Shown here one piece after another: positions 596-16,060 of a stretch of DNA of 64,000 nucleotides (within the stretch, counting starts at the first letter, position 1; each line of letters opens with the position of its first letter). Below the pieces are notes generated by a model, which saw only the letters and a program-made list of their open reading frames with translations, was not told the origin of the DNA and searched no databases. Origin of the DNA: Gemmatimonadetes bacterium 2013_60CM_65_52 (lineage in GTDB: Bacteria; Gemmatimonadota; Gemmatimonadetes; Gemmatimonadales; Gemmatimonadaceae); contig NGFI01000014.1 in the NCBI GenBank assembly GCA_002215645.1, forward strand, positions 248,001 through 312,000, in the 5' to 3' direction. A program made the position numbers and the translations under genes.

Positions 596-724
596 GGAGT
601 GTTCCGATATGAGTGGCGTGGGTTACGGCTTCTTCGCCCGTTCCCGTGACGCTGCATGCGCGGTACGTTCTGCGCTAGTACGGGCGGCGCGCGCCGTCCG
701 CTGTCTCCTCCTGCCGACCACCGC

Positions 725-2134
725 ATGCGTCGTATCGTCATCGCGCTCTGCATTCCCGTCGTCGCCTCCGCGCAGGCGACCGATCAGGTCAAGCAATTCG
801 TGAGCGTGGACGCGCCCGTGGTGGCGTTGACGCATGCGCGGGTGATCGATGGAACGGGCGCGGCGGCTCGCTCCGATCAGACCGTGCTCATCGATCATGG
901 CGTCATCCGCGGCGTCGGCGATTCGAGCCAGGTCGCCATTCCGGCCGGCGCGCGCGTCATCGATCTCACCGGAAAGTCGGTGCTGCCAGGCTTCGTCATG
1001 GTGCATGAGCACATGTTCTATCCGTCTGGGGGCGGGACCATCTACAACGAGCAGGCATTCAGCTTTCCGCGGCTTTATCTCGCGGGCGGCGTCACGACGG
1101 CGCGCACGGCGGGCAACATGGCCGGCTACGCCGACCTCGAGCTGAAGCGCGCGATCGACAGCGGACGCACAGTCGGTCCCGACCTCGATGCGACGGCCCC
1201 GTATCTGAATGGACCCGGCCTGCCCATCTACCAGGTCCATGCGCTCAAGGACACTGCCGATGCGCGGCAGATGGTCGCACATTGGGCCGATCGCGGCGCG
1301 ACGTCGTTCAAGACGTACATGCAGATCACGCGCGCGGAGCTCGCGGCCGTGGTGAAGGAAGCGCACCGCCGCAAGTTGAAGGTGACCGGCCATCTCTGCT
1401 CCGTGACCTTCCGCGAAGCGGCGACCATCGGCATCGACAATCTCGAGCATGGTCTCGTGGTCGCGAGTGATTTCGTCACCGGCAAGAAACCGGATGAATG
1501 CCCCACCACTGGTGGAGGCGTGCTCGCCTCGCTCGCCACTCTGGATGTCGACGGCGAGCCCATCCAGTCGCTCATCCGTTATCTCGTGGCAAAGCATGTG
1601 GCGCTGACGTCCACGCTCACGGTCTTCGAGACGTTCGTGCCCGGACGCCCGCAGGCGCCACAGGGCGCACTCGACGCAATGCTGCCCGAATCGCGCGACC
1701 AATACACTCGGCGCTGGACCTTGATCTCGACGAGCACCTCGCCGTGGAGCGGTCTGTTTCCGAAGGAGATGCGCTTCGAGCTCGCGTTTCTTCGCGCGGG
1801 CGGTCTCCTGCTGGCGGGCACGGATCCAACGGGTTACGGAGGCGTCGTCGCCGGCTACTCCAACGCGCGCGAGCTCGAGCTCCTCGTCGAGGCAGGACTC
1901 ACGCCGCTCGAGGCCATCAAGGTGGCGACGTTCAATGGCGCAACCTATCTGGGCCGCGCCGACCGCATCGGATCGATCGCCGGCGGCAAGCGCGCAGACC
2001 TCATCGTCGTCAACGGCGACCCGTCCACGCGCATCGCGGACATCGAGAAGATCGAGACCGTGTTCAGGAACGGCGTGGGATTCGACTCCGCCAAGCTGTT
2101 CGCCTCCGTCAAAGGACAGGTAGGACTCCATTGA
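725..2134 (+). CDS. Secreted amidohydrolase family protein (first of a pair)
   Basis: A 469-residue metal-dependent amidohydrolase of the imidazolonepropionase/prolidase-like group. I chose the ATG at 725 because it gives a signal peptide (MRRIVIALCIPVVASAQA); an earlier in-frame ATG at 656 only adds an unlikely Pro/Arg-rich leader. The N-terminal beta-sandwich start is seen in the residues around VIDGTG, followed by VLPGFV and the metal-site motif H94-E-H96 (usual form HxH). Later candidates for metal or catalytic residues are the His in TGHLC, the His in NLEHGL and the Asp in AGTDPTG. The C-terminus has the typical IGSIAGGKRADLIVVNG segment. The substrate is unknown; secreted members are often dipeptide or lactone hydrolases. 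Its stop overlaps the next start (TGATG), so the two genes are translationally coupled. Confidence 0.87.
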   Translation: MRRIVIALCIPVVASAQATDQVKQFVSVDAPVVALTHARVIDGTGAAARSDQTVLIDHGVIRGVGDSSQVAIPAGARVIDLTGKSVLPGFVMVHEHMFYPSGGGTIYNEQAFSFPRLYLAGGVTTARTAGNMAGYADLELKRAIDSGRTVGPDLDATAPYLNGPGLPIYQVHALKDTADARQMVAHWADRGATSFKTYMQITRAELAAVVKEAHRRKLKVTGHLCSVTFREAATIGIDNLEHGLVVASDFVTGKKPDECPTTGGGVLASLATLDVDGEPIQSLIRYLVAKHVALTSTLTVFETFVPGRPQAPQGALDAMLPESRDQYTRRWTLISTSTSPWSGLFPKEMRFELAFLRAGGLLLAGTDPTGYGGVVAGYSNARELELLVEAGLTPLEAIKVATFNGATYLGRADRIGSIAGGKRADLIVVNGDPSTRIADIEKIETVFRNGVGFDSAKLFASVKGQVGLH

Positions 2135-3651
2135 TGAAACACGCAAGACTGATTCTCGTGGCGTTCGCGGCGTTCGTCGGGAATGCGTCCGCACAGACCA
2201 CGGCTAGACACGGTGTGCGCGCCACCACGCTCGCGATCCGTAATGCCACCATCGTCGACGGCAACGGGACGCCGGCCTCCGGCCCCACGGACATTCTTCT
2301 CGAGGGCAACCGAATTGCGAGCGTGACGTTTCTCGACCCGGTAGCCGTGCGCTCCGGACTCGCGAAGCGCCCGAAGGCCGACGTGGACATCGACGCAACG
2401 GGAAAGTACGTGTTGCCGGGATTGATCAACGCGCACGCGCATCTTCAGGACGAGCGTGCGCACGTTCCGCAGCCGTGGGATTACACGCTCAAGTTGTGGC
2501 TCGCCTGCGGCATCACGAGCGTGCGCGAGGTCGGCGCGGATACCACCGAGAAGATCATCACCTTGCGCGAACGTTCCGCTCGCGGAGAGATCGCCTCACC
2601 GAGACTGTTCGTGTACGCGCGATTCTCGAATCCTCCGGTGCCGCAGACGCCGGACGCCGCACGCACGCGCATTCAGCTCCTCAAGCGGATGGGCGCGGAC
2701 GGCATCAAGATCCTCGGCGTCGATCGCGACGTCATGCAGGCAGTGCTCGACGAATCGCACAAGCTCGGCTTGCGCGTCGCACACCATGTGGGTGTCGAAG
2801 AGACAAACGCGTGGGACGACGCCCGGTTCGGCACCACGAGCATCGAGCACTGGTACGGCATTCCCGACGCCGCAATTCTCGATGGGCGACAGCACTTTCC
2901 ATCGGACTACAACTATCGAAACGAGACCGATCGCTTCCGGTGGGCAGGCCGCCTCTGGCGCGAGGCCGATCCTGTATTGCTCGGCCGCGTGCTCGACACG
3001 CTGGTCGCGGCAAAGGTCGCGTGGGTGCCGACGCTCGATATCTACGAGGCGTCGCGCGACCTGCAGCGCGCGCAGACGCAGCCGTGGTTCGTCGATTACC
3101 TGCATCCCACGCTCGAGGAATACTTCCGTCCCGATCCGGCCAATCATGGCTCGTACTTCATCGGCTGGACATCGACCGACGAAGCGTACTGGAAGGAGAA
3201 TTACAGAATCTGGATGGCAGCGCTGCGCGACTTCGAGCGGAAAGGTGGGCTCATCGGCGCCGGCGACGATGCAGGATTCATCTATCAGATGTACGGCTTC
3301 GGGCTCATTCGCGAGCTCGAGCTACAGCAGGAGGCCGGCTTTCAAACGATGAAGGTGCTGCAGCACGTCACGGGCAACAACGCTCGCATCTTGGGGCGCG
3401 ACGCAGACCTTGGGCGCGTTCGCGCGGGCTATCTCGCGGATCTGATCGTCGTGAACGGCAATCCGCTGGAGAACATCAAGGTGCTGTATCCGACGGGTGT
3501 CGATCAGATGCGCGACGGAAGGGTCGTGCGCGGCGGGGGAGTGGAGTGGACGATCAAGGACGGCATTCCGTACCACGGGCCGACGCTACTGCGCGAGGTG
3601 AAGGCGCTCGTCGCAGCGGCACGCGCCGAGAAGGCACAGCCCGGGCACTAA
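2134..3651 (+). CDS. Secreted amidohydrolase family protein (second of a pair)
   Basis: A 505-residue amidohydrolase starting at the ATG that overlaps the previous stop codon. MKHARLILVAFAAFVGNASAQ is a clear signal peptide. The motif VLPGLINAHAHLQ carries the HxH metal pair at residues 101-103. VAHHVGVEETN and TSIEHWYG supply later His residues, GAGDDAG the conserved Asp, and the C-terminal segment with AGYLADLIVVNGNP is typical of the family. It is only moderately similar to the first gene, so the two are coupled members of one superfamily rather than a recent duplication. They may act on related periplasmic substrates, but no substrate can be read from the sequence. Its end is only 13 bp from the converging DUF2779 gene, which is where the defence-type island starts. 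Confidence 0.87.
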   Translation: MKHARLILVAFAAFVGNASAQTTARHGVRATTLAIRNATIVDGNGTPASGPTDILLEGNRIASVTFLDPVAVRSGLAKRPKADVDIDATGKYVLPGLINAHAHLQDERAHVPQPWDYTLKLWLACGITSVREVGADTTEKIITLRERSARGEIASPRLFVYARFSNPPVPQTPDAARTRIQLLKRMGADGIKILGVDRDVMQAVLDESHKLGLRVAHHVGVEETNAWDDARFGTTSIEHWYGIPDAAILDGRQHFPSDYNYRNETDRFRWAGRLWREADPVLLGRVLDTLVAAKVAWVPTLDIYEASRDLQRAQTQPWFVDYLHPTLEEYFRPDPANHGSYFIGWTSTDEAYWKENYRIWMAALRDFERKGGLIGAGDDAGFIYQMYGFGLIRELELQQEAGFQTMKVLQHVTGNNARILGRDADLGRVRAGYLADLIVVNGNPLENIKVLYPTGVDQMRDGRVVRGGGVEWTIKDGIPYHGPTLLREVKALVAAARAEKAQPGH

Positions 3652-3664
3652 CCACATCCGCTCA

Positions 3665-5506
3665 TCAATTGCCTGCTGACGTTGCTCGCCGCCAATACTC
3701 GAACACCAGCACCATGCTGAGCGTGTCCAGCTCGCAGTACTGTCGAAGAAGGTGTGCCCACGCGTTTCTGCCGTCGGGATCATCCCGTTCGACGCCGTAC
3801 ATCATTGCTTGATATGCCGTCATGGCACCGGTGCCTTCGTGCACGTCCTGCATCACGCCATTGATCTCGATGGCCGGCAACGCCCGATAGGGGTCGGCAT
3901 CCGCGGGAACATCGCGGCCTCCCCAGAGCTTGAACTGCTCTCGCATCGCGGCGTCGGACCGCCAGAGCGCATCCAGAACAACCTTGATCGACGTTCGCCC
4001 TTTCATGCCGGGATGGTAGTAGTCGTTCTGCGCCCATTTGTGCATGTCCACCGCTCGCAATTCCAGCCGCTTCAGCCATGCATGGAGCTCCGGATCCAGC
4101 GCGGCAAATCGCGGCAACTCTTCGGCGGTCTCACGAAGCGTGCTGATTTCATACTGCGACCATATCAGAACACTTCCCGTCTCCCCGACCGCATCACGGA
4201 GCGCGACGGTAAAGGCCCGATTCGGCCACACGTCGTCCGCATTGAGCCACTCGGTGTGAACGGGCTGCGCGCCCGGTTCGGCCACCGTATGACAACTCCA
4301 CTGAAACGACACCTGTCCCCAGGGCCGCATTCCGACATGATACGGCATTGCCAGGCGTGAGCACTCGAAGTCGATAAAATACAATGGATACTCGACGCGC
4401 CCGATGTTGGCCCGAAGAGTCGGCCCGATCCACTCGGTGCCGCTGCGCGTATGCTCGATCTGCCGTCGCTGACGAATTCCAAGCGGACCCCACGTCATGT
4501 CGGCCTTCGCGAGGCAGGCGATGGACACATCGAACAGGGACGCCTTGCCTTCGGCGAAGAGGGTCTCGACCAGCGGCTCACCATCGAGCGTCTTCACCTG
4601 GCCCGCATGGGTCAACTCCAGCACGTGCGGATTCTTGTCCGCCAGGTCACCCCAGCAGTGGTGAAATCCGCTTTCGCCGGCCGCATTTGGAGCGCTGAAC
4701 TCACAGTTCCTGCAATCTGCGCCGATCGTGCGCCAATCCGCTTCAAACGGCTCGTCAAGCATTGACTCGAACGCGGACGCCGCGGCATCCACCTCGTCAC
4801 GGAGAAGGGCCACTTCCGCGGAGACATCCAGGATTGTGAGAAGGTCGAGGCTGTCCAACAGCTCGGGCTCGCCGATGAACCGGGCACCGTATGTTCGTTC
4901 GCCGTTCGGACCGCCGGTGAGCACCCGAAAGAGCGAGGGCACGTTGTCGACCTTCGCCCGCTTGCTCGCATCCACCAGCATCAGGAAGGGCCGAACAACA
5001 ATGCCGGGCAGCATGCGCTCGAGCACGAGTGTCTGATACGTGATGTCTTCGAGTTTTTCTCGCCATTTAGCCGCGACTCCTGGTTTCGTCGCGTTCTGAA
5101 GGAGGCCTCGGCCACCTTTCGCCAGGCTCTGGGCGTGGGCGGCGCCGTCGATTCCCTTGGATTTCACCTCAATGAGATCGATGGCCTCACCGTTCTTCAC
5201 GAGGACGTCGGCGCGCGCTATTCGTCCGCCGTGGAGAATGGTGGCGTCAAAGACCGTCACGTGCTCCGCACGCAGCAGCTCGCGACCGTGCGCGGCGTCT
5301 GCAATGGGATCATGTCCACTCGGCGCTGCAATTCCCTCAGGATACTTTGCGCGCGCAAGGGCATCTACCATGTATCCTCCGTGCGCGAGCAAACGGAGAT
5401 AGGCGTTAGAGCTCTTGTTGTCCGGATACCCTTGTCGCCTGTAGTACAGCTTCGCGCCACAACTGCGTGCCTGCATGTATTCTGATTTGGAGAGCGGGAG
5501 CGTCAT
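3665..5506 (-). CDS. DUF2779 protein: Cas4-like nuclease fused to DEDD exonuclease-like domain
   Basis: A 613-residue protein recognised as DUF2779 by the YFIDFE...RPWGQVSFQWSCH region. Two nuclease-like parts can be read. Residues 1-290 look like a RecB/Cas4-type PD-(D/E)XK domain: D100, then E113-V-K115 (LIEVKSKG). C16 together with C265, C268 and C284 is arranged like the Fe-S cluster cysteines of Cas4 and AddB (one N-terminal, three C-terminal). Residues 370-600 look like an RNase H-fold 3'-5' exonuclease: D379-x-E381, a middle acidic stretch (VDMHKW), and YCELD with D594. The domain reading is inference; the DUF match is recognition from memory. The gene is divergent from the SNF2 gene across about 87 bp containing a perfect dyad (5537-5558), which suggests shared control with the island. 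Confidence 0.85.
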   Translation of the reverse strand: MTLPLSKSEYMQARSCGAKLYYRRQGYPDNKSSNAYLRLLAHGGYMVDALARAKYPEGIAAPSGHDPIADAAHGRELLRAEHVTVFDATILHGGRIARADVLVKNGEAIDLIEVKSKGIDGAAHAQSLAKGGRGLLQNATKPGVAAKWREKLEDITYQTLVLERMLPGIVVRPFLMLVDASKRAKVDNVPSLFRVLTGGPNGERTYGARFIGEPELLDSLDLLTILDVSAEVALLRDEVDAAASAFESMLDEPFEADWRTIGADCRNCEFSAPNAAGESGFHHCWGDLADKNPHVLELTHAGQVKTLDGEPLVETLFAEGKASLFDVSIACLAKADMTWGPLGIRQRRQIEHTRSGTEWIGPTLRANIGRVEYPLYFIDFECSRLAMPYHVGMRPWGQVSFQWSCHTVAEPGAQPVHTEWLNADDVWPNRAFTVALRDAVGETGSVLIWSQYEISTLRETAEELPRFAALDPELHAWLKRLELRAVDMHKWAQNDYYHPGMKGRTSIKVVLDALWRSDAAMREQFKLWGGRDVPADADPYRALPAIEINGVMQDVHEGTGAMTAYQAMMYGVERDDPDGRNAWAHLLRQYCELDTLSMVLVFEYWRRATSAGN

Positions 5507-5536: not shown

Positions 5537-5558
5537 AGCTCACCAGATTCCGTGAGCT
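5537..5558. promoter_or_regulatory. Perfect dyad AGCTCAC-N8-GTGAGCT in divergent island promoter
   Basis: A 7-bp perfect inverted repeat with an 8-bp spacer lies between the DUF2779 start (5506) and the preferred SNF2 start (5594). The position and symmetry fit an operator for a dimeric repressor controlling both directions. No dedicated regulator gene is visible in the island unless the RhuM-family protein, whose N-terminus looks DNA-binding, does this. Function is inferred from position only. Confidence 0.4.
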
Positions 5559-5593
5559 CGCGCCTAAAGTACCAGCTTATGCGATCGGCGACC

Positions 5594-8451
5594 ATGGGAA
5601 TCACGGATCATCAGGCCAAGTATTTCGCGCATGAGCTGACGCGCCGGTTTCCTCCGGATGACGCGTCCCGTCTGGCCGGCGCGCTCGTGGATGCCCAGGT
5701 CGACCTCAACCCGCATCAGGTTGACGCCGCGCTGTTCGCCTTCAGCTCCCCGCTTTCCAAAGGAGTTCTCCTCGCGGATGAAGTGGGGCTCGGCAAGACT
5801 ATCGAAGCGGGTCTCGTGATCTCCCAGCGTTGGGCCGAACGGCGGCGAAAGATTCTGGTCATCACTCCGGCGAATCTTCGCAAGCAGTGGTATCAGGAGC
5901 TCACTGAGAAGTTCTTCGTACCCTGCGTGATCTTCGAGGCACGATCATTCAATCTTGGGCGTAAACAGGGTGCTCAGAACCCATTCTCCAATAGCTCGAT
6001 CGTGATCTGCTCGTACCAGTTCGCACGAAGCAAGGAATCCGATGTTGCCGCCGTGCCGTGGGACCTCGTGGTGATCGACGAAGCCCACCGCCTCCGCAAC
6101 GTCTACAGGACGTCGAACGTCATCGCGAACTCTCTGAAGCGGGCACTCGCTCAGCGGCACAAGATTCTCCTGACGGCCACGCCGCTCCAGAACACTCTTT
6201 TGGAGCTTTACGGGCTGGTCTCGTTCATCGACGAACATGTCTTTGGCGACGTTCGGACGTTTCGCGAGCAATACACGGTGCTCGATGACGACACCGCCTT
6301 CCAATCCCTGAAGCGCCGCATCGCGCCGGTCTGTCATCGCACCCTGCGCCGGCAAGTCGCATCGTACGTGTCATATACGAAACGGTCGGCCATCCTGGAG
6401 CTGTTCACGCCGGACCAGAGCGAAGATGAGCTGTACGAGCTCGTGTCCGAGTACCTGCGCCGCGACAATCTTCAGGCGCTGCCGGGCAGTCAGCGGACGC
6501 TCCTCACGCTGGTGCTCCGAAAGCTCCTCGCGTCGTCGACATTGCGATCGCGGGAGCGCTGGAGACGATGGCCAACCGGCTTCGCGAGAAGCTCCGAGTG
6601 GGCACACCGACGACAGAGCTGGAAGAGACGCTCGAGGCTGACTACGAATCCCTGCCCGAGACGGCCGAAGAGTGGGGCGACGATACGGAGAAGGCCGAAG
6701 CACTGAGCGCGGAAGCGCGCGAAGCCTTGCAGCGCGAAATCGGCGACCTCGATGAATTCGCGGCGTTGGCGGCTCGCATCGAGCATAACGGCAAAGGGAA
6801 GGCACTGCTCGGTGCGCTGGAGAAGGCGTTCCACGCCATTCGCGCGCTTGGCGCCAACGAAAAGGCGATCATCTTCACTGAGTCGCGACGCACGCAGCAA
6901 TACCTGCTGCGCGTGTTGGCCGATGGAGGATTTCCCGCCGAAGACGTCGTCCTGTTCAATGGATCGAACACGGACGAGAGTTCCAAGGCCATTTATGCGG
7001 CGTGGCTTGCTCAACACCGCGGCACGGACCGGGTTACCGGATCCCGCACGGCCGACATGCGGTCAGCGCTCGTTGACTACTTCCGGGACCGCGCGCGGAT
7101 CATGATCGCCACGGAAGCGGGCGCCGAAGGAATAAACCTCCAGTTCTGCTCCCTGGTGGTGAACTACGATCTTCCGTGGAATCCGCAGCGCATCGAGCAG
7201 CGCATCGGGCGCTGTCATCGTTATGGGCAGAAGCATGATGTCGTCGTCGTGAATTTTCTCAACCAGAACAACGCCGCCGACGTGCGGGTCTTCGAGCTTC
7301 TGTCGTCGAAGTTCAAGCTGTTCGAAGGTGTCTTCGGCGTAAGCGACGAGGTACTCGGCGCAGTCGAAGCGGGCGTCGATTTCGAGAAGCGCATTGCGAC
7401 GATCTATCAGACATGCCGCCACCCAACGGAGATCAAGCGCGAGTTCGACACGCTCCAGCTCGAACTGAGCTTCGAGATCAACGAGGCCATGACCTCCACG
7501 CGTCGCAAATTGCTGGAGAACTTTGACGACGAGGTGCGCGACCGGCTGAAGGCGACGAATGAGAAATCAACCGAGGCGCGCAGCCGGCTCGAAGACTTGT
7601 TGATGGCCCTCACGCAGCACGAACTGCGGGACCGGGCTGATTTCACTAGAGCGGGCGGGTTCGATCTCCATGCTCCTCCAACGGAAGACATGGCGACGGG
7701 GCGATATGAGCTTCCGCGTCGTTCCGGGGAAGCGCATCTATATAGAATCGGTCACCCGTTGGCTGAATGGGCGATCACCGCGGCCAAGGAGCGTGTCCTC
7801 GAGCCGGTCTCGGTGGAGTTCACGTACTCGGTGAAGGAAGGCCGGTCCGTGGTGCTCGAGCCGCTGATTGGGCAGTCGGGGTGGTTGAGCGTGTCGCGGT
7901 ACAGTGTGTCGTCGCTCGACCGGGAGGAGGATCACATGATCTTCGCCGCGCAGACAGATTCAGGTGCGCCGGTGGATCCCGCGGCTCCGCTTCGGATGCT
8001 TCGTCTCCCGTCGCGTGTCCTGGGTGCCGCCCGGGTGCCCGTCGACGTCTTCGATGCGCTGGAAACGGTGCGCAAGCGTGCCGAGGCGGATATTCAGTTG
8101 TCCGTCTCAGAGCACAACGCGACATTCCTGGATGAGGAAGCAACCAAGCTCGAAGCGTGGGCAGACGATCAGAAGACGGGACTTGAACGCGAACTGAAAG
8201 ACATGGATCGGCAGATCCGCGAGATCAAGAAGTCGTCAAGTGCAGCCCTGACCCTCGAACAGAAGCTCGCAATTCAGAAGCAGGTCAAGGCAATTGAGGC
8301 AACGCGGAACGAGAAGCGGAAGCGGCTGTTCGATGCGCAGGACGAGGTTGATCGCCGACGGGAGTTCCTGATCAGCGACATCGAGTCGCGACTGGAGCAG
8401 GTTGTGAGCAAGGAGTCTCTTTTTGCATTGCGTTGGACTCTGGTATCATAG
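5594..8451 (+). pseudogene. SNF2-family helicase, frameshifted near 6543 (about 950 aa if intact)
   Basis: Two overlapping frames together make one SNF2/HepA-type helicase. The first part (to 6543) has the Walker A core in LADEVGLGKTIEAG, the DEAH box in VVIDEAHR and motif III in LLTATPLQN. The second part (from 6544) has the C-terminal helicase lobe with EAGAEGINLQF and the arginine-finger motif QRIGRCHRYGQ, then a charged coiled coil. The break is exact: LLASST is in one frame and AIAGALETM in the frame one base away. Family members have LASSTFAIA here, so one base appears missing between 6543 and 6544. No slippery heptamer is present. It is either an assembly or sequencing indel or a real inactivation. 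The start is uncertain: ATG 5594 is preferred, with alternatives at GTG 5552 (inside the dyad) and ATG 5579. It is the first gene of the plus-strand island operon. Confidence 0.82.
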
Positions 8452-8549
8452 CGCCACCAACGTTTGTTGAGGGTCTGCTCGGCTCGTAGATTATCGTCTT
8501 CGGCCTACTCCATCAGGCGCGTTCCGTTCACCTGGAGAAGTACAGTATC

Positions 8550-10178
8550 GTGGCAACGCGGCAGACCCGGCTTGAACTCACGTGGATTGGCAAGGAGACT
8601 CGACCGCTCCTTGAGCCGCGCATTCTAGTGGAAGATCCGGACAAATCCTATCATGCGCCGCACCAAGTTGGATTGCGTACCGTCTTTGACAATCAGTTGA
8701 TTTTTGGGGACAACTTGCTGGCGCTAAAGGCTCTCGAGCAGGAATTTACGGGAAAGATCAAATGCATTTTTATTGATCCTCCGTACAATACTGGAAGTGC
8801 CTTTGAGCATTACGACGATGGTGTCGAACACTCGGTTTGGCTCTCCCTACTCAGGGATCGAATTGAGTTGCTTGGGAAACTCCTTGCATCCGATGGCTCG
8901 TTGTGGATCACCATTGATGACACGGAATGTCATTACCTGAAGGTTCTTTGCGACGAGGTCCTCGGTCGACGGAGTTTTGTGTCATCCATTGCATGGGAAA
9001 AGGATCAAGGAAGGCGTGGAGACACGGATATTTCATCGGCGCATGACCACATCCTGCTTTATGCACGGGATAGAGACATTTGGAGAAGAAGAAGAAACCT
9101 TCTCCCAAGGTCCGAAGCACAAGTGTCTCGATATCGCAATCCTGACAATGACCCTCGCGGACCATGGCTGCAAGGTGACAATGGCACGGCTAAGAGCGGA
9201 TCTGCCGCCGCTCGCTTTCCTGTTACGTTGCCGTCTGGCCGAATTGTAACACCGCCTTCTGGTAATTATTGGCGCTTCTCGGAAAAGAGCTTTCAACGCG
9301 CTCTGGTAGACAATCGCGTCTATTTCGGCGCGAAGGGTGACAGCATGCCCGTCATCAAGCGGTATCTCACGGATGTGCAGGACGGAATCGTACCGCGAAC
9401 TTGGTGGCCAGCATCAGAGGTAGGTTCGAATCAGGATGCGAAGCGCGATCATCTTCGTAAGCTTCTTCCGGAAATTGAGCCTTTTGCCACCCCGAAACCG
9501 GAGGAACTGCTTGAGCGGGTCTTGACGATTTCGACAAGTGCGGGCGATCTCGTTCTCGACTCCTTCGCCGGCTCCGGCACCACAGGCGCCGTCGCACACA
9601 AAATGGGCCGCCGCTGGATCATGATCGAAATGGGCGAACACGCTCATACCCACATCATCCCGCGCATGAAGAAGGTGATCGACGGCGAAGATCCCGGCGG
9701 TATCACCGAATCCGTGAACTGGAAAGGCGGCGGCGGTTTCCGCTACTACCGCCTCGCACCGTCGTTGATCACCACCGACCAGTGGGGCAACCCCGTCATC
9801 AACACGGAATACAACGCCGCCATGCTCGCAGAGGCGCTGTGCAAGCTCGAAGGCTTCACGTATGCGCCCAGCGATTCCGTCTACTGGCAGCAGGGCCGCT
9901 CCACCGAGCGCGATTTCCTCTACGTCACCACCGCCAATCTCGGGCCCGGCCAACTCCAGCAGCTGAGCGACGAGGTCGGGCCGGACCGCACGCTCCTCGT
10001 CCTCTGCACCGCATTCCGGGGCAACACCGATCGCTTCGGGAACCTGACCGTTCGCAAGATCCCCACGCACGTCCTCTCCCGCTGCGAGTGGGGTCGCGAC
10101 GACTATAGCCTAGAAGTCGCCAACCTGCCCCCCGCGCCGCCGCCCGCGGGCCAGCAGGACATGTTCGGCGACGAATGA
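8550..10178 (+). CDS. Site-specific DNA (adenine-N6) methyltransferase, type III Mod-like
   Basis: A 542-residue beta-class methyltransferase. The catalytic motif DPPYN is at residues 76-80, preceded by LIFGDNLLALK, and the AdoMet-binding motif FAGSGTTG is near residue 339. This motif order (catalytic first, AdoMet-binding second) is the beta class used by type III Mod subunits. The region between the two motifs would hold the target recognition domain. The GTG start at 8550 follows a GGAGAA ribosome site. The first half is visibly AT-richer than its neighbours: 8701-8820 is 44% GC by count, while 9721-9780 is 67%. That pattern fits replacement of the N-terminal/specificity half by recombination. 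It should methylate host DNA so the Res-like nuclease downstream does not cut it. It ends 1 bp before the RhuM-family gene. Confidence 0.93.
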   Translation: MATRQTRLELTWIGKETRPLLEPRILVEDPDKSYHAPHQVGLRTVFDNQLIFGDNLLALKALEQEFTGKIKCIFIDPPYNTGSAFEHYDDGVEHSVWLSLLRDRIELLGKLLASDGSLWITIDDTECHYLKVLCDEVLGRRSFVSSIAWEKDQGRRGDTDISSAHDHILLYARDRDIWRRRRNLLPRSEAQVSRYRNPDNDPRGPWLQGDNGTAKSGSAAARFPVTLPSGRIVTPPSGNYWRFSEKSFQRALVDNRVYFGAKGDSMPVIKRYLTDVQDGIVPRTWWPASEVGSNQDAKRDHLRKLLPEIEPFATPKPEELLERVLTISTSAGDLVLDSFAGSGTTGAVAHKMGRRWIMIEMGEHAHTHIIPRMKKVIDGEDPGGITESVNWKGGGGFRYYRLAPSLITTDQWGNPVINTEYNAAMLAEALCKLEGFTYAPSDSVYWQQGRSTERDFLYVTTANLGPGQLQQLSDEVGPDRTLLVLCTAFRGNTDRFGNLTVRKIPTHVLSRCEWGRDDYSLEVANLPPAPPPAGQQDMFGDE

Positions 10179-10179
10179 A

Positions 10180-11229
10180 GTGAGCCAGGACGACGAGGTC
10201 CCGGCGTCGGAGCTGATCCTCTACCAGACCGAGGACCAGCGCACGCGGGTGGAGCTCAGGCTCGCTGGAGGCACCGTTTGGCTCTCCCAGGCGCAGATGG
10301 CCGAGGTGTTCCAGACGTCTGTCGCGAACATAAACATCCACCTGGCAAGCATTTATGACGATGGTGAGCTGGACCCGACCGCAACTATTAAGGATTTCTT
10401 AATAGTTCGAACCGAGGGTGCGCGAGAGGTCCGGCGTGACGTCAAGCACTATGCCCTCGAGGCCATTCTTGCCGTGGGCTACCGGGTAAAGTCCAGGCGA
10501 GGAACCCAGTTCCGGCAATGGGCCACGACCCGTCTGAGTGAGTATCTCGTCAAGGGGTTCACGCTCGACGACGAGCGACTGCGCAATCCACCGGGTCCGG
10601 GCACGCCGGACTATTTCGACGAGCTCCTGGAACGCATCCGGGACATACGCGCCAGCGAGCGCCGCATGTACCTCCGCGTCCGCGACATTCTGGCACTCGC
10701 CAACGACTACGAGCCCTCTGCCGCCGAGACGAAGCGACTCTTCCAGACGGTGCAGAACAAGCTGCATTTCTCTGTCACCGGCCACACTGCCGCGGAGCTG
10801 ATCGCCCAGCGCGCGGATCACTCCGCGCCCAACATGGGCTTGTCGACATGGAAGGGCGACGTCGTCCGGAAGGGAGATGTAGTGATCGCCAAGAACTACC
10901 TGCGCAATGGCGAGATCGACGAGCTGAATCGCATCGTCGTGATGTTCCTCGACTTCGCTGAAGATCAGGCGCGGCGACGCCGGCAGACGTTCATGCAGGA
11001 CTGGGCTACGAAGCTCGACGAATTTCTTCGGTTCAACGAGCGGCGCGTTCTGGACAATCCCGGGAGCATCTCGCACGATGCCGCCGAACGGCTCGCGCGC
11101 GAAGAGTATGCGCGCTTCGAGGAGCGGCGGCGGCTCGAGCGAGAACAGATCGCTGAGCGTGACTATCTGGACGAGGTGAGCGAGGCGGTGCGCTCGTTGC
11201 CGCGGGCCGGCAAGGAGAAGAAGGAGTGA
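10180..11229 (+). CDS. RhuM (virulence RhuM) family protein
   Basis: A 349-residue protein recognised as the RhuM family by the N-terminal segment with TVWLSQAQMAEVFQT (a winged-helix or KilA-N-like DNA-binding look), then TIKDFLIV, HYALEAILAVGYRV and RGTQFRQWAT. The C-terminal half is mostly helical and charged. The GTG start lies one base after the methyltransferase stop, and its own stop overlaps the GTG of the Res-like gene, so it is translationally embedded between modification and restriction genes. RhuM is named from a Salmonella pathogenicity island gene; its biochemical role is unknown. Its place here suggests regulation, control of restriction, or a toxin or effector role. The sequence does not decide between these. 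Confidence 0.88.
   Translation: MSQDDEVPASELILYQTEDQRTRVELRLAGGTVWLSQAQMAEVFQTSVANINIHLASIYDDGELDPTATIKDFLIVRTEGAREVRRDVKHYALEAILAVGYRVKSRRGTQFRQWATTRLSEYLVKGFTLDDERLRNPPGPGTPDYFDELLERIRDIRASERRMYLRVRDILALANDYEPSAAETKRLFQTVQNKLHFSVTGHTAAELIAQRADHSAPNMGLSTWKGDVVRKGDVVIAKNYLRNGEIDELNRIVVMFLDFAEDQARRRRQTFMQDWATKLDEFLRFNERRVLDNPGSISHDAAERLAREEYARFEERRRLEREQIAERDYLDEVSEAVRSLPRAGKEKKE
10383..10407. repeat. AT-rich perfect 10-bp inverted repeat inside the RhuM gene
   Basis: AACTATTAAG and CTTAATAGTT flank a 5-base loop. The sequence is strikingly AT-rich in a GC-rich gene and encodes part of the conserved TIKDFLIV stretch. In mRNA it would form a hairpin with a 10-bp stem. No function is known. Confidence 0.6.
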
Positions 11230-13928
11230 GCCGGCATGTGAATTCGATCGCCGGCCGGTTGAGTCTGCGCGCGCCGCAGCGCGAGGCGCTCGAGATACTC
11301 GATCGCGTCACTGAGATTGTGGCGCCTTCGAAAGCCACGGATGTCGATGCTGCACTTCAGGTCATCCGGAGCGAGTATCCTTCACTCACCGAGTTCGAGC
11401 GGGACTTTCCGTCGCTCTGTTTTGCGCTTGCCGCCGGCGTGGGCAAGACGCGGCTCATGGGTGCGTTCATCACGTATCTGCATCTGGCGCATGGGATCGA
11501 CAACTTTTTTGTGCTCGCGCCCAACCTCACCATCTATAGAAAGCTCATCACCGACTTCACGCCGAATACCCCGAAGTACGTCTTCAAGGGCATCGCGGAG
11601 TTCGCCACGGCTGCGCCCGAGATCATCACTGGCGACGACTACGAGATGCGCGCCTCGACGTTGTTCGACCGGCTCGTCCGCTGCAAGATCAACATCTTCA
11701 ACATCTCGAAGATCACATCGGAAGTGCGCGGCGGACGGGCGCCAAGGATCAAGCGGCTGTCGGAGTACATCGGCGAGAGTTACTTCGAGTACCTCGCGGT
11801 GTTGCCAGACCTCGTGCTGATCATGGACGAGTCGCATCGGTATCGAGCATCGGCGGGTGTGAAGGCGATCAACGAGCTGAAACCGGTGCTCGGCCTCGAG
11901 CTCACGGCGACACCGTTCACGGAGTCATCGCGCGGGCCGGTGCAATTCAAGAACGTCGTGCTCGACTACCCGCTCGGTCGCGCCATGGCCGATGGCTTCG
12001 TGAAGGAGCCGGCGGTGGTGACGCGTCGCAATTTCAACGCGGCGGGGATGAGCGCGGACGAGATCGAGCGGCTCAAGCTGGAAGACGGCATCCGTCTCCA
12101 TGAGAGTGTCAAGGTGGAGTTGGAGACGTATGCCCGACAGATGGACCGGCCGGTGGTGAAGCCGTTCGTGCTCGTGATCGCTCGTGACACGACCCACGCC
12201 GCCGCATTGCTCGCACACATCGAGTCCGAGGCGTTCTTCGAGGGGCGGTATTGCGGCAAGGCGATCCAGGTCGATTCGAGTCGTAGCGGCGCGGAAGAGG
12301 AGGTCATGATCGAGCGACTCCTTCGCGTCGAGCACGCCGACGAGCCGACCGAGATTGTGATTCACGTCAACATGCTGAAGGAAGGTTGGGACGTCACGAA
12401 TCTCTACACGATCATTCCACTGCGGGCCGCGAATGCGCGAACTCTGATCGAGCAATCGATCGGACGCGGGCTGCGGCTTCCGTATGGGGTGCGCACCGGT
12501 GTTCCGGCGGTTGATCGCCTGAACATCGTGGCGCATGATCGATTCCAGGAGATCGTGGACGAAGCGGGCCGGCCGAATTCGCCGATTCGCATGACGAGTG
12601 TCGTGCTCGATGAACGCGAACTGGATGCGCGAACCACAAGCGTGGCGTCGCCGTCGCGGTTGGATGCCGAGCTGGGGCTGGCCCCGGCGGCGGAAGTTGC
12701 GCAATTCGCAACCGATGCCCGCGTCGAAACGACGCCGCTCTTCAGTTCTCCGGAAGAACAGCGCGTCGCACAGATCACCCATTCCGTGATACGGCGCTTG
12801 TCGACCCGGCCCGATCTGCTTCCCGACGTTGCACATCTGGAGCGAGCGGACATTCGCGCCGAAATCGCGCGTATCGTCGAGGCGGAGTACGCGCCGCGCC
12901 AAATCGAGTTGGACATTGCTACCCAGCCGATGGACGTCGTGGCGATCGTGGCCAAGACTGCTGAACGCATCGGCCAACGGATGATTTCGATTCCGCGCAT
13001 TCTCCTGGTGCCAACAGGAGACGTCAGTTCACGTTTCGAGCCGTTTCAGCTGGAGTTGAGCAACCTCCGCTATCCACCGGTATCCGAGGACCTCTGGATC
13101 CGACATCTTCGCACGGGTCAAACAGACGTTCTCGCGCTGAATCCTGGTGGAGTGGAGGAGAAGCGGGCGGAAGACTATGTGGTCAGTGGCCTCGTTGGCT
13201 TCAACGATGTTTCGTACGACGATCACGCCGATTTGCTCTATGATCTGGCCGGGCAGGTCGTGCGTCATCTCGAGTCGTACCTGTCAGACGAGGATGCGCG
13301 AAGGGTCCTTCGCTATCACCAGCGCGAGATCGCGACGTTCGTTCACACACAGATGGTTCCTCACTTTCGCGAAAAGTCGACCGGCGGATATGAGGTTGTG
13401 GTGAGCCGCGGGATGACGGATCTGAAACCGAGCGCGTATACCGCTACGGTTCGCGAAGGCGTCGTGGACTATCGGTTCACGCCGACCGACAAGGGCAATA
13501 TCGCCAAGTACCTGTTCGCGGGCTTTACGCGGTGTTTGTACGACGTTCAGAAGTTCGATTCGGATCCGGAGCGAAAGTTTGCGGTGATCCTCGAGCGCGA
13601 CGCGCTCAAGTGGATGAGGCCGGCGCGCGGCCAGTTCCAGATTTTCTACGGGAGCGGCGGGACCCACAACGAGTACCAGCCCGATTTTGTCGCGGAAACG
13701 GATCGCGAGATCCTGATGGTGGAGGTGAAAGCACGGCGCGATCTGGAAGATCCTGATGTTGTGTCGAAGCAGTCCGTGGCACGGGACTGGTGCGGCCATG
13801 CGACGGCCTATTCCACCGGACACGGCGGCAAGCCGTGGCGGTATGTGATGATTCCGCACGACGCCGTGGTGGACAACGCGGAACTCGGATGGCTGGCTGA
13901 TCGTTTTTCGTTGACGTCAGCCAACTGA
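11226..13928 (+). CDS. Type III Res-like restriction endonuclease (helicase plus PD-(D/E)XK nuclease)
   Basis: A 900-residue DEAD/DEAH-type helicase with a C-terminal nuclease, resembling the BPTD_3080-type restriction endonucleases related to type III Res. It has Walker A GVGKT at 71-75 (in FALAAGVGKTRL), Walker B as DESH at 201-204, motif III LTATPF, motif V in NMLKEGWDVTNL and motif VI in EQSIGRGLRLP. The nuclease site is D820 (QPDF) followed by E833-V-K835 (MVEVKA), a standard PD-(D/E)XK pattern near the C-terminus. Type III Res proteins translocate or slide on DNA with Mod and cut it; here the Mod-like gene is two genes upstream with RhuM between. The GTG start overlaps the RhuM stop (GTGA). 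All motifs are intact, so the enzyme is probably functional. Confidence 0.9.
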   Translation: MSRHVNSIAGRLSLRAPQREALEILDRVTEIVAPSKATDVDAALQVIRSEYPSLTEFERDFPSLCFALAAGVGKTRLMGAFITYLHLAHGIDNFFVLAPNLTIYRKLITDFTPNTPKYVFKGIAEFATAAPEIITGDDYEMRASTLFDRLVRCKINIFNISKITSEVRGGRAPRIKRLSEYIGESYFEYLAVLPDLVLIMDESHRYRASAGVKAINELKPVLGLELTATPFTESSRGPVQFKNVVLDYPLGRAMADGFVKEPAVVTRRNFNAAGMSADEIERLKLEDGIRLHESVKVELETYARQMDRPVVKPFVLVIARDTTHAAALLAHIESEAFFEGRYCGKAIQVDSSRSGAEEEVMIERLLRVEHADEPTEIVIHVNMLKEGWDVTNLYTIIPLRAANARTLIEQSIGRGLRLPYGVRTGVPAVDRLNIVAHDRFQEIVDEAGRPNSPIRMTSVVLDERELDARTTSVASPSRLDAELGLAPAAEVAQFATDARVETTPLFSSPEEQRVAQITHSVIRRLSTRPDLLPDVAHLERADIRAEIARIVEAEYAPRQIELDIATQPMDVVAIVAKTAERIGQRMISIPRILLVPTGDVSSRFEPFQLELSNLRYPPVSEDLWIRHLRTGQTDVLALNPGGVEEKRAEDYVVSGLVGFNDVSYDDHADLLYDLAGQVVRHLESYLSDEDARRVLRYHQREIATFVHTQMVPHFREKSTGGYEVVVSRGMTDLKPSAYTATVREGVVDYRFTPTDKGNIAKYLFAGFTRCLYDVQKFDSDPERKFAVILERDALKWMRPARGQFQIFYGSGGTHNEYQPDFVAETDREILMVEVKARRDLEDPDVVSKQSVARDWCGHATAYSTGHGGKPWRYVMIPHDAVVDNAELGWLADRFSLTSAN

Positions 13929-13935
13929 GGCGTAG

Positions 13936-16050
13936 ATGGCCAGCGGATCCGCGGGAGACCGCCCGTTACGGCCGATCTGGAACGTCGACGAGCGGGCACT
14001 GCAGGTGTTCATGGAACGCATGCAGCAGCCGCCAGATTCCGCGCAATGGTTCGCGCTGCGGCGCGCGGCGGAACGCCTTGCGCTCGTCCCTGGGTTCGAT
14101 TCGCTCATTACGCTGGATTCCAACACGATCAAGGAGCTGCCGCACCAGATCGACGTTGCACTTCGAGTGCTGCGTCAAATGGGCGGCCGCGCAATCCTTG
14201 CCGATGAGGTGGGGCTCGGGAAAACCATCGAAGCCGGTATCGTGCTCAAGGAGCTCGCGGTGCGCGGCCTCGCCCGACGTATTCTGATTCTCACGCCTGC
14301 TGCTCTCGTGGATCAATGGTGCGGCGAGCTCGAGACCAAATTCTTCGAGGTATTCGAGACGCCGACGGATGGTGATGACTGGCGGCGATGCAGCCGTGCG
14401 ATTGTTTCATATCATCGTGCCGTGCGGAAGCAACACCAGGAAGCCATTCTTCGTACGCCGTGGGACCTCGTCATTCTGGACGAAGCACACAAGGTCAAGA
14501 ATCACCTGGCCAGCATTCATCAATTCGTCGCCAAAATACAACGGAACTACATCCTCCTGCTGACGGCGACTCCTCTCCAGAACGACCTCCGCGAGCTGTT
14601 CAACCTCGTGACGCTTCTGCGGCCGGGTCAGCTTGGAACATGGCGCGACTTTTCGCGTCGTTATCTCACGAGTGGTGACCGCCGCAAGGTGACGAATCCG
14701 GCCGCGGTGCGTGAGCTCACGTCGGAGGTCATGATCAGGACTCGGCGATCGAGTGTCGCCCAGTCGATCGATCTTCCTCCTCGGCGCCCCACGCATCCGG
14801 TCGTCGTGTTGACCCCTTCGGAGCGGGATCTGTATGATCGCACCGTGCTGTTCCTTCGCGAGCTCTATGCGAGCGGATTCTACGAGCCGACTCATGATGA
14901 GATAGAGGAGGACGCCGTTCGCAAGCGACGGCGAGGCGGCAAGGGCATCATGACTCTCGAAATCATGCGCCTCTGCCAGCGTCTATGCTCATCGTCTGCC
15001 GCTCTCGCCGATTCGCTGCGGAAGTTCAATGAGGGCGAGCTGATCACGCCGGAGTATCGCGACCGCGCGGTGGCGCTTGCCGATGATGCGGCCGCGATCG
15101 ACTCAAACGCAAAACTGGTAGCGCTGAGGCGCGTTCTGGAGGAACACACGGGACAGGTGATTGTCTTCTCCGAACATCTTCCGACTCTGGCGCTGCTCGA
15201 CCGCCATGTCCGTGCCAGTGGCCGTCGGCCGATTCTGTATCAGGGAGGCTTGTCACGCGTCGAGCGGGCGCGCCGCCTTCGGCTCTTCAAGGAGGCTACC
15301 GATGGCGTATTTATCGCAACGCGTGCCGGCACCGAGGGGCTGAATCTCCAATTCTGTAACGTGCTGGTGAACTACGAGCTACCGTGGAACCCGATGGTCG
15401 TCGAGCAGAGAATTGGACGCATCCATCGTATCGGGCAGACCCGGGAAGCGCACATCATCAACTTTGCCGCGCGCGGCACGATCGAAGCGCACATCCTCAC
15501 GCTACTCGATCAGAAGATCCGCCTGTTCGAGCTCGTCGTCGGGGAACTCGACGTCATTCTTGGCGATTTTGGCGGCGCCGAGACGATGGAGCAGCGAATC
15601 ACCGATGAGTTCCTGCGGGCGAAGACCGAGGGCGAATTCGAGAAGGCCATCGACAGCATTGGTGACGAGATCAGCCGAAGCCGCAAAGCGGGCCTGGAGC
15701 AGGAGCGCCTCAACGCCGACTTGAGCGGCGACGACAACGCGATGCGGCTCGAGCGCGACTTCGTCAATCTCGAAATTCCAGCGCGCGTACGATTGGGGCT
15801 TGGGACGAAACACCTGAAGATGGTCCTGGGACTGGACGCGCGCCGAGAAATGCTACTCCTTCAAGTTCACGAGATCATGGAAGCGCTCGAACAGGCCGAT
15901 GTGCGGGATGGTGTGCGCTCGCCCGACTATGGACCGCTCGTCGATATCACTGGCGTGACGCGACGTGGACGGGCAGTCTACCTCACTGTTCAGGCGGACC
16001 GATTGCCGATAATGCTCGTGAAGATCGACGCGGACCCGATTGTGGCGTGA
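13936..16050 (+). CDS. Second SNF2/HepA-type helicase
   Basis: A 704-residue SNF2-family ATPase. It has Walker A GLGKT at 93-97 (ILADEVGLGKTIEAG), DEAH at 182-185, motif III in LLTATPLQND, the C-terminal lobe with ATRAGTEGLNLQF, and the arginine-finger motif QRIGRIHRIGQ around R495. It is shorter than the first SNF2 protein and diverged from it, and it lacks the long C-terminal coiled coil, so it is a distinct paralogue. It starts 7 bp after the Res-like stop; the next gene starts 10 bp after its stop. SNF2 proteins of this type occur in DISARM (DrmD) and in type III-linked defence clusters, but no other DISARM gene is here. It probably works with the adjacent Cys/His-rich protein, to which it is closely linked. 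Confidence 0.9.
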   Translation: MASGSAGDRPLRPIWNVDERALQVFMERMQQPPDSAQWFALRRAAERLALVPGFDSLITLDSNTIKELPHQIDVALRVLRQMGGRAILADEVGLGKTIEAGIVLKELAVRGLARRILILTPAALVDQWCGELETKFFEVFETPTDGDDWRRCSRAIVSYHRAVRKQHQEAILRTPWDLVILDEAHKVKNHLASIHQFVAKIQRNYILLLTATPLQNDLRELFNLVTLLRPGQLGTWRDFSRRYLTSGDRRKVTNPAAVRELTSEVMIRTRRSSVAQSIDLPPRRPTHPVVVLTPSERDLYDRTVLFLRELYASGFYEPTHDEIEEDAVRKRRRGGKGIMTLEIMRLCQRLCSSSAALADSLRKFNEGELITPEYRDRAVALADDAAAIDSNAKLVALRRVLEEHTGQVIVFSEHLPTLALLDRHVRASGRRPILYQGGLSRVERARRLRLFKEATDGVFIATRAGTEGLNLQFCNVLVNYELPWNPMVVEQRIGRIHRIGQTREAHIINFAARGTIEAHILTLLDQKIRLFELVVGELDVILGDFGGAETMEQRITDEFLRAKTEGEFEKAIDSIGDEISRSRKAGLEQERLNADLSGDDNAMRLERDFVNLEIPARVRLGLGTKHLKMVLGLDARREMLLLQVHEIMEALEQADVRDGVRSPDYGPLVDITGVTRRGRAVYLTVQADRLPIMLVKIDADPIVA

Positions 16051-16060
16051 GCAACGCGTC

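Follow-up and report, generated by a model that had tools for sequence, protein, structure and literature searches.

The window analysed here, a stretch of 64,000 nucleotides from Gemmatimonadetes bacterium 2013_60CM_65_52, encodes a DUF2779 protein in which the main residues of two putative nuclease sites, one Cas4-like and the other DEDDy-like, are invariant among 75 divergent sequences, and in a set of 25 genomes DUF2779 genes are found close to methylase and WYL genes more often than expected. We give an even chance to the reading that this protein processes DNA ends as an ancillary enzyme of defence islands and is not a fixed subunit of any system. With two invariant active sites and these co-location counts, DUF2779 becomes a directly testable candidate for the post-cutting step in restriction-type defence, which is the degradation of severed foreign DNA.

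The DUF2779 gene, its family and its distribution

The gene shows an intact ORF of 613 aa in the minus strand, from 5506 to 3665, with an ATG start and the stop at the low end (the strand was absent from an earlier note on this DNA). The Pfam scan shows PF11074 (DUF2779) at residues 376-506 (E 1.4e-24), and the score of 87.2 bits, above the curated cut-off of 23.3, places the protein in this family. No further family was found by Pfam at E up to 10, PF13482 and TPR included, none by NCBIfam at E up to 10, and none by the PADLOC models at E 0.01; no Cas4 model of Pfam or NCBIfam matches the protein at E up to 10. The PDB yielded no meaningful sequence match when queried with the protein and two profiles, and the halves of the protein are linked to known structures by fold comparison only. 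The window's genome contains a second DUF2779 copy on contig C8, 55% identical.

The fusion of two nucleases, which the earlier note had read from the sequence, is supported by the predicted structure and is not new, being in print since 2014. Majorek et al. (2014) place DUF2779 as family F.17 among presumed 3'-5' exonucleases, and describe F.17 and COG2251 as containing DUF83, which resembles PD-(D/E)XK nucleases (PMC3985635). The N-terminal region is present in all 30 of the best other PF11074 loci searched with a profile of 75 sequences; the match is weak (best domain E above 1e-5) in four of them, L004-L007, and in L018 this region is in a different frame from the C-terminal part. Within the sections available of the literature found that names the family or its accession, no tested biochemical function is reported; one of these sources lists DUF2779 among top-scoring pathogen-associated domains (PMC8442362).

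A first scan of genome contigs with the protein alone as query found no relative. At E <= 1e-20 the protein matches 28 of the 395 genomes of the phylum, and three of these matches cover just part of the C-terminal half. At least 534 relatives were found with one genome per species scanned, and the best 80 were kept: they belong to Gemmatimonadetes, Chloroflexi, Actinomycetota, Verrucomicrobia-type, Bacteroidetes, proteobacterial and other lineages, and six of their loci repeat loci of a set of 26 Gemmatimonadota loci. Phage records show no DUF2779 match at E 1e-3, and 31 plasmid records match at E 1e-5, one of them covering at least 80% of the query. IMG/VR contains eight DUF2779 loci, some of which look like host islands, not viruses.

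Residue conservation and predicted structure

The following features were located in the gene:

3665..5506, minus strand: DUF2779 protein, 613 aa, intact ORF (ORF list)
4616..5506, minus strand: residues 1-297, Cas4-like PD-(D/E)XK domain with four conserved Cys (AlphaFold2 models; Cas4 7mi4_A, Z 13.5)
4394..4615, minus strand: residues 298-371, joining segment, mainly helical (AlphaFold2 model)
3668..4393, minus strand: residues 372-613, DEDD-type exonuclease-like (RNase H-like) domain (8g99_A, Z 13.7 over 373-613; MrfB 8un9_A, Z 11.7 over 360-611)
5459..5461, minus strand: C16, first of four invariant Cys (75/75)
5207..5209, minus strand: D100 of the PD-(D/E)XK site (75/75; strand 95-105 of the model)
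5162..5170, minus strand: E113-V-K115 of the PD-(D/E)XK site (E and K 75/75; strand 108-119 of the model)
4703..4714, minus strand: C265-x2-C268 (75/75)
4655..4657, minus strand: C284, fourth invariant Cys (75/75)
4364..4372, minus strand: exo I motif D379-F-E381 (D and E 75/75; strand 375-384 of the model)
4148..4150, minus strand: E453, probable exo II position, Glu for Asp (73/75; start of helix 451-467)
3725..3739, minus strand: exo III motif Y590-x3-D594, DEDDy type (Y and D 75/75; helix 577-611)

Two alignments were used. The near alignment contains 25 sequences, the window protein among them but without L063, which is partial, and L066, a duplicate of the window. The divergent alignment contains 75: to the window protein it adds 74 full-length homologues, which share 27-52% identity with that protein and were taken from the best 80 of the at least 534 relatives after removal of five truncated sequences and L112. 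The ten residues named in the earlier note (C16, D100, E113, K115, C265, C268, C284, D379, E381 and D594) are at the numbers given there and are invariant both in the near (25/25) and in the divergent alignment (75/75), which, as judged from these sequences, is far above chance. Four more residues do not vary in the 75 sequences: D154 and Q158, both in the helix that follows E113/K115, D487 and Y590. Position 453 shows Glu in 73 sequences and Gln in two. We take E453 to be the probable exo II position, where Asp is usual; this assignment is by order and by the usual motif.

All 75 sequences thus show the PD-(D/E)XK residues and the four Cys of the Cas4 pattern, and also exo I D-x-E and exo III Y-x3-D. 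From these motifs the exonuclease half is classed as DEDDy-like (Y590-x3-D594), with an acidic set that on a strict reading is D-E-E-D. The DEDD-type exonuclease of the earlier note stands in its fold and in D379, E381 and D594, all invariant, and lacked the third acidic residue and the class residue, for which E453 and Y590 are the candidates. Both active sites look intact in the alignments, and the Cys pattern suggests that the Cas4-like half probably holds an Fe-S cluster.

The AlphaFold2 model of the whole protein, with the 75-sequence alignment as input, has a mean pLDDT of 94.4 and a pTM of 0.92, and residues 1-300 folded alone have a pLDDT of 92.5. With Foldseek, the whole model shows no PDB match at E <= 0.001, the best being Cas4/Cas1 7mi4_A (E 2.6e-3); for residues 1-300 alone, Cas4 (1.6e-4) and RecE (2.5e-4) are nearly level. 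With VIA-align, residues 1-295 of the whole model match Cas4 (7mi5_A, Z 13.3). Residues 1-300 alone match best Cas4 7mi4_A (Z 13.5, 196 aligned, rmsd 4.3, 13% identity), followed by type I-C Cas4 (Z 12.2), MGME1 (11.5), RecE (11.0), EXO5, AdnA and others. The Cas4 match extends to residue 297, beyond the Cys cluster, whereas those of MGME1 and RecE stop at 251-263, short of it. The Cas4-like layout that the earlier note had seen in D100/E113/K115 and the four Cys is in this way borne out by the best fold match of the N-terminal half.

For the exonuclease half, residues 373-613 match DNA polymerase alpha (Z up to 13.7, 177 aligned, rmsd 3.3, 5% identity), the archaeal family-B polymerase 5mdn_A (Z 12.9, 12% identity), which is tied with the best-scoring polymerase alpha matches, and MrfB 8un9_A (Z 11.7, 172 aligned, rmsd 3.5, 15% identity). 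RNase T and DnaQ, the folds which the earlier note had chosen for comparison, are not among the 50 matches listed, which does not prove that they are unlike it; family-B polymerase exonuclease domains and MrfB are among these matches. That note had also allowed for a predicted structure lacking either fold; since the model shows a Cas4 fold over 1-295 and an exonuclease fold over 372-613, and the named residues are invariant, this is not the case here. In the model, D100 and E113/K115 are on neighbouring strands, and in the second domain D379/E381 occupy the first strand, E453 a helix start after a strand, and Y590/D594 the last helix. Such placement is the layout of PD-(D/E)XK and DEDDy enzymes, and together with the fold matches it suggests that the named residues cluster. 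The exonuclease domain of DNA polymerase alpha is described as inactive (PMC11194089), and therefore the fold by itself is no proof of activity.

The neighbouring operon in the window

The genes of the divergent operon next to DUF2779 are in the plus strand:

5552..8451, plus strand: DrmD-like SNF2 helicase gene, in two frames (5552-6706 and 6568-8451), divergent from DUF2779 (context)
8550..16050, plus strand: MTase_III-like methylase, RhuM, REase_III-like gene and second SNF2 helicase (model matches; context)

These genes match models of a type III methylase, a type III restriction enzyme, a DrmD-like helicase and RhuM (PDC-S05). In the ORF list, the DUF2779 and DrmD-like helicase ORFs are divergent and 45 bp apart; helicase relatives align from residue 14-18 of the window helicase on, and its true start may lie further from DUF2779. 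Of the order's 288 genomes, 10 contain a relative of this helicase at E <= 1e-60, and the genome of the window is one of them. Among the nine other helicase loci, eight contain a Mod-like gene nearby and six a Res-like gene, and DUF2779 is absent from the fetched flanks of all nine, although L178 ends early at a contig end. L177 shows the same gene order as the window through the second SNF2 gene and the following ORF, without DUF2779. Since none of the nine sister operons carries it, DUF2779 is a neighbour, not a subunit, of the SNF2-Mod-RhuM-Res-SNF2 system.

The DrmD-like helicase of the window is in two overlapping frames and its nine other relatives are in single open frames of 938-1273 codons; the split is either a real break or an assembly error. 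An ORF of 724 codons at 16040-18214 follows the second SNF2 gene, has a relative at the same place in L177, and shows no Pfam match at E 1e-5. The whole segment SNF2-Mod-RhuM-Res-SNF2-ORF, at 5552-18214, resembles a compact type III-like system that includes DrmD-like helicases. Two tandem amidohydrolase genes, at 656-3651, flank the island.

Genomic context at other loci

No conserved operon partner of DUF2779 was found in the 26 Gemmatimonadota loci, nor is any neighbour family shared by the majority of loci, either in these 26 or in those of the best 80 of the at least 534 relatives, where the largest neighbour cluster, WYL-like, is present in 13 of the 80.

Methylase and WYL co-location was counted in the 25 genomes with long-form DUF2779, the window's genome included, with rounded genome sizes. 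Four of the 30 PF01555 (N6/N4 methylase) sites are within 5 kb of DUF2779, with 0.085 expected (Poisson 2.1e-6); the 30 sites are 31 matches minus the second piece of one gene, and the window, which gave rise to the test, is counted in it, three near sites remaining without it. Two of the four near methylases, in the window and L071, are of type III Mod and are accompanied by Res, and the other two, in L068 and L072, fit type II models best (PADLOC); in L072 the neighbouring 864-codon gene has no PADLOC match. Type III Mod and Res genes within 10 kb of DUF2779 were found in at least four loci, the window, L071, L099 and L161, with three different best-model pairs. This number is a lower bound because the search was by tblastn with few queries; it covered 114 loci, counting repeats (26 Gemmatimonadota, the best 80 relatives and eight from IMG/VR).

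WYL genes number 18 among the 837 neighbours in the 80 best loci. They account for 11 of 262 genes at a distance of one or two genes and one of 272 at six or more (Fisher 0.0027), a post hoc comparison for which the WYL cluster was picked after proving the most frequent; the 11 near genes are in 10 of the 80 loci. In the 25 genomes, a second test places two of nine merged WYL sites within 5 kb of DUF2779, with 0.023 expected, and one locus (G202, the same as L090), in which two WYL genes directly follow DUF2779, is common to both tests. The window's genome shows no WYL match at E 1e-6.

PADLOC families at E 1e-10 number 76 over 130 adjacent genes and 198 over 130 distant genes of the same loci, and therefore these counts do not show that defence genes in general are enriched beside DUF2779. 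The near set contains those 130 of the 140 genes at distance one that encode 80-900 aa. The far set is a random choice of 130 from 145 genes that are at least seven genes away, and contig-end genes were excluded from this set only.

A BrxL gene is directly upstream of DUF2779 in L186 and in the near-identical L149, and lies about 9 kb beyond it in L160. In L193 BrxL is two genes downstream of DUF2779, and a WYL gene stands before DUF2779. In L189 (1460-7971), SbcD and SbcC genes are directly upstream of DUF2779 in the same strand, with a gap of less than 20 bp after SbcC, and L190 shows SbcD/SbcC-like genes before DUF2779, also in the same strand. Other genes seen nearby are macro-domain-like genes in L134 (Pfam-checked), L143, L161, L114 and L193, and a YqaJ-like gene that adjoins DUF2779 in L101, L102, L105, L115 and L119, with a gene order common to these loci (Pfam).

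Possible functions

In the ancillary role, a restriction or BREX-type system, or another nuclease, would first open the foreign DNA. The Cas4-like half would then cut or trim single strands of the opened DNA, while the C-terminal DEDDy-like half would remove nucleotides from 3' ends, and the DUF2779 protein would thereby degrade or resect the foreign DNA. Having both sites, a single protein could resect the two strands of a duplex once it is open, and it may cooperate with the neighbouring systems. The repeated placement near restriction genes suggests that the protein may help to destroy foreign DNA, including that of phages. The restriction-island role proposed in the earlier note is supported by the type III-like neighbours and by the methylase excess in the 25 genomes, but the gene is missing from the nine sister operons and has no constant partner; the role is plausible as long as the protein is not taken for a constant component of the adjacent system. 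In favour of the ancillary reading we count the invariant catalytic and Cys residues, the Cas4 and family-B exonuclease fold matches, the methylase and WYL counts, the type III genes at four loci, the BrxL genes in L186 and L193, and SbcD/SbcC in L189. More tentatively, and with well under even confidence, DUF2779 proteins would be widespread mobile anti-foreign-DNA enzymes, often WYL-regulated, that clear ends made by unrelated systems (type III restriction, BREX, SbcCD), a RecBCD-like degradation module for defence islands that is not yet recognised. Against the ancillary reading stand the nine sister operons, the lack of a recurrent partner, the PADLOC counts, the absence of WYL matches at E 1e-6 from the window's genome, the inactive polymerase alpha domains among the best exonuclease matches, and the Mycoplasma bovis phenotype given below.

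The main rival to the ancillary defence reading is a DNA-repair nuclease acting on host chromosome ends or damaged strands, found in islands because accessory genes collect there, which we consider possible although doubtful. Genes within 10 kb of DUF2779 that we take to be LigD-like from their sequence speak for it at three of the 26 Gemmatimonadota loci (L067, L070 and L074, the last repeated by L089), a recurrence too rare to build on. The SbcD/SbcC genes upstream in L189, the similar genes in L190 and the lack of a neighbour family common to most loci also agree with repair, and so does the likeness of the C-terminal half to MrfB, a mitomycin C repair exonuclease (PMC11194089). An insertion mutant of the Mycoplasma bovis DUF2779 gene does not reach wild-type titres in cell co-culture (PMC7373297), a phenotype that fits repair and hints at a different role in that lineage. 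A repair enzyme accounts poorly for the patchy distribution in the phylum (28 of 395 genomes, three of them partial) and for methylase and WYL co-location above expectation.

A dedicated component of the adjacent SNF2-Mod-RhuM-Res-SNF2 system, trimming the DNA that this system cuts, is unlikely: the 45 bp between the divergent ORFs, a distance that grows if the helicase starts further off, and the type III genes near DUF2779 in L071, L099 and L161 point that way, but none of the sister operons carries DUF2779 in the fetched flanks, even L177, with L178 cut by the contig end. It is highly improbable that one nuclease half is a non-catalytic remnant, for D100, E113, K115, D379, E381, Y590 and D594 are invariant in all 75 sequences and remnants rarely keep such residues; in its favour are Glu where Asp is usual at position 453, Gln there in two sequences, and the inactive domains of polymerase alpha as the nearest solved exonuclease matches (PMC11194089).

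Comparison with known systems

The window protein shares with PF11074/F.17 the RNase H-like 3'-5' exonuclease clade and the PD-(D/E)XK-like DUF83 partner described in the family entries of PMC3985635. It is longer (613 aa, with near-alignment relatives of about 600-630) than most other loci of the family, since in 23 of the best 30 the open frame spans 460-534 codons, and the N-terminal match of these loci takes in a smaller part of the profile. COG2251 (F.13) also combines DUF83 with an RNase H-like exonuclease, but according to the same entries it is of the PF13482 family, often with AAA repeats (PMC3985635), and the window protein has no PF13482 match.

With Cas4, the protein shares the fold over residues 1-297, the PD-(D/E)XK residues and the four Cys, and it differs in being fused to an exonuclease and in lacking a Pfam Cas4 match. 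Its second half shares with the family-B DNA polymerase exonuclease domain the fold over 373-613 and the D-x-E and Y-x3-D motifs, but it has no polymerase and carries Glu where exo II probably lies; the best matches, to polymerase alpha, are inactive domains. MrfB (YprB) of B. subtilis has the same fold and is a 3'-5' exonuclease (PMC12458937), but it is DEDDh with a TPR tail (PMC11194089), whereas the window protein shows Y590 for His and no TPR match in Pfam.

Cas4 enzymes act on single-strand substrates with a polarity that varies between reports (PMC5704561), and in Synechococcus elongatus the transfer or maintenance of plasmids is reduced by a Cas4-like nuclease that is not known to belong to DUF2779 (PMC10653904). 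The nearest parallel in context is the UvrD-Cas4-like fusion (Hudaiberdiev et al., 2017), another Cas4-like fusion beside type III Mod/Res and WYL genes, in which the partner is a helicase, whereas in DUF2779 it is an exonuclease. That fusion is read as ancillary to different pathways (PMC5704561), and an ancillary role likewise fits the DUF2779 protein because its partners vary.
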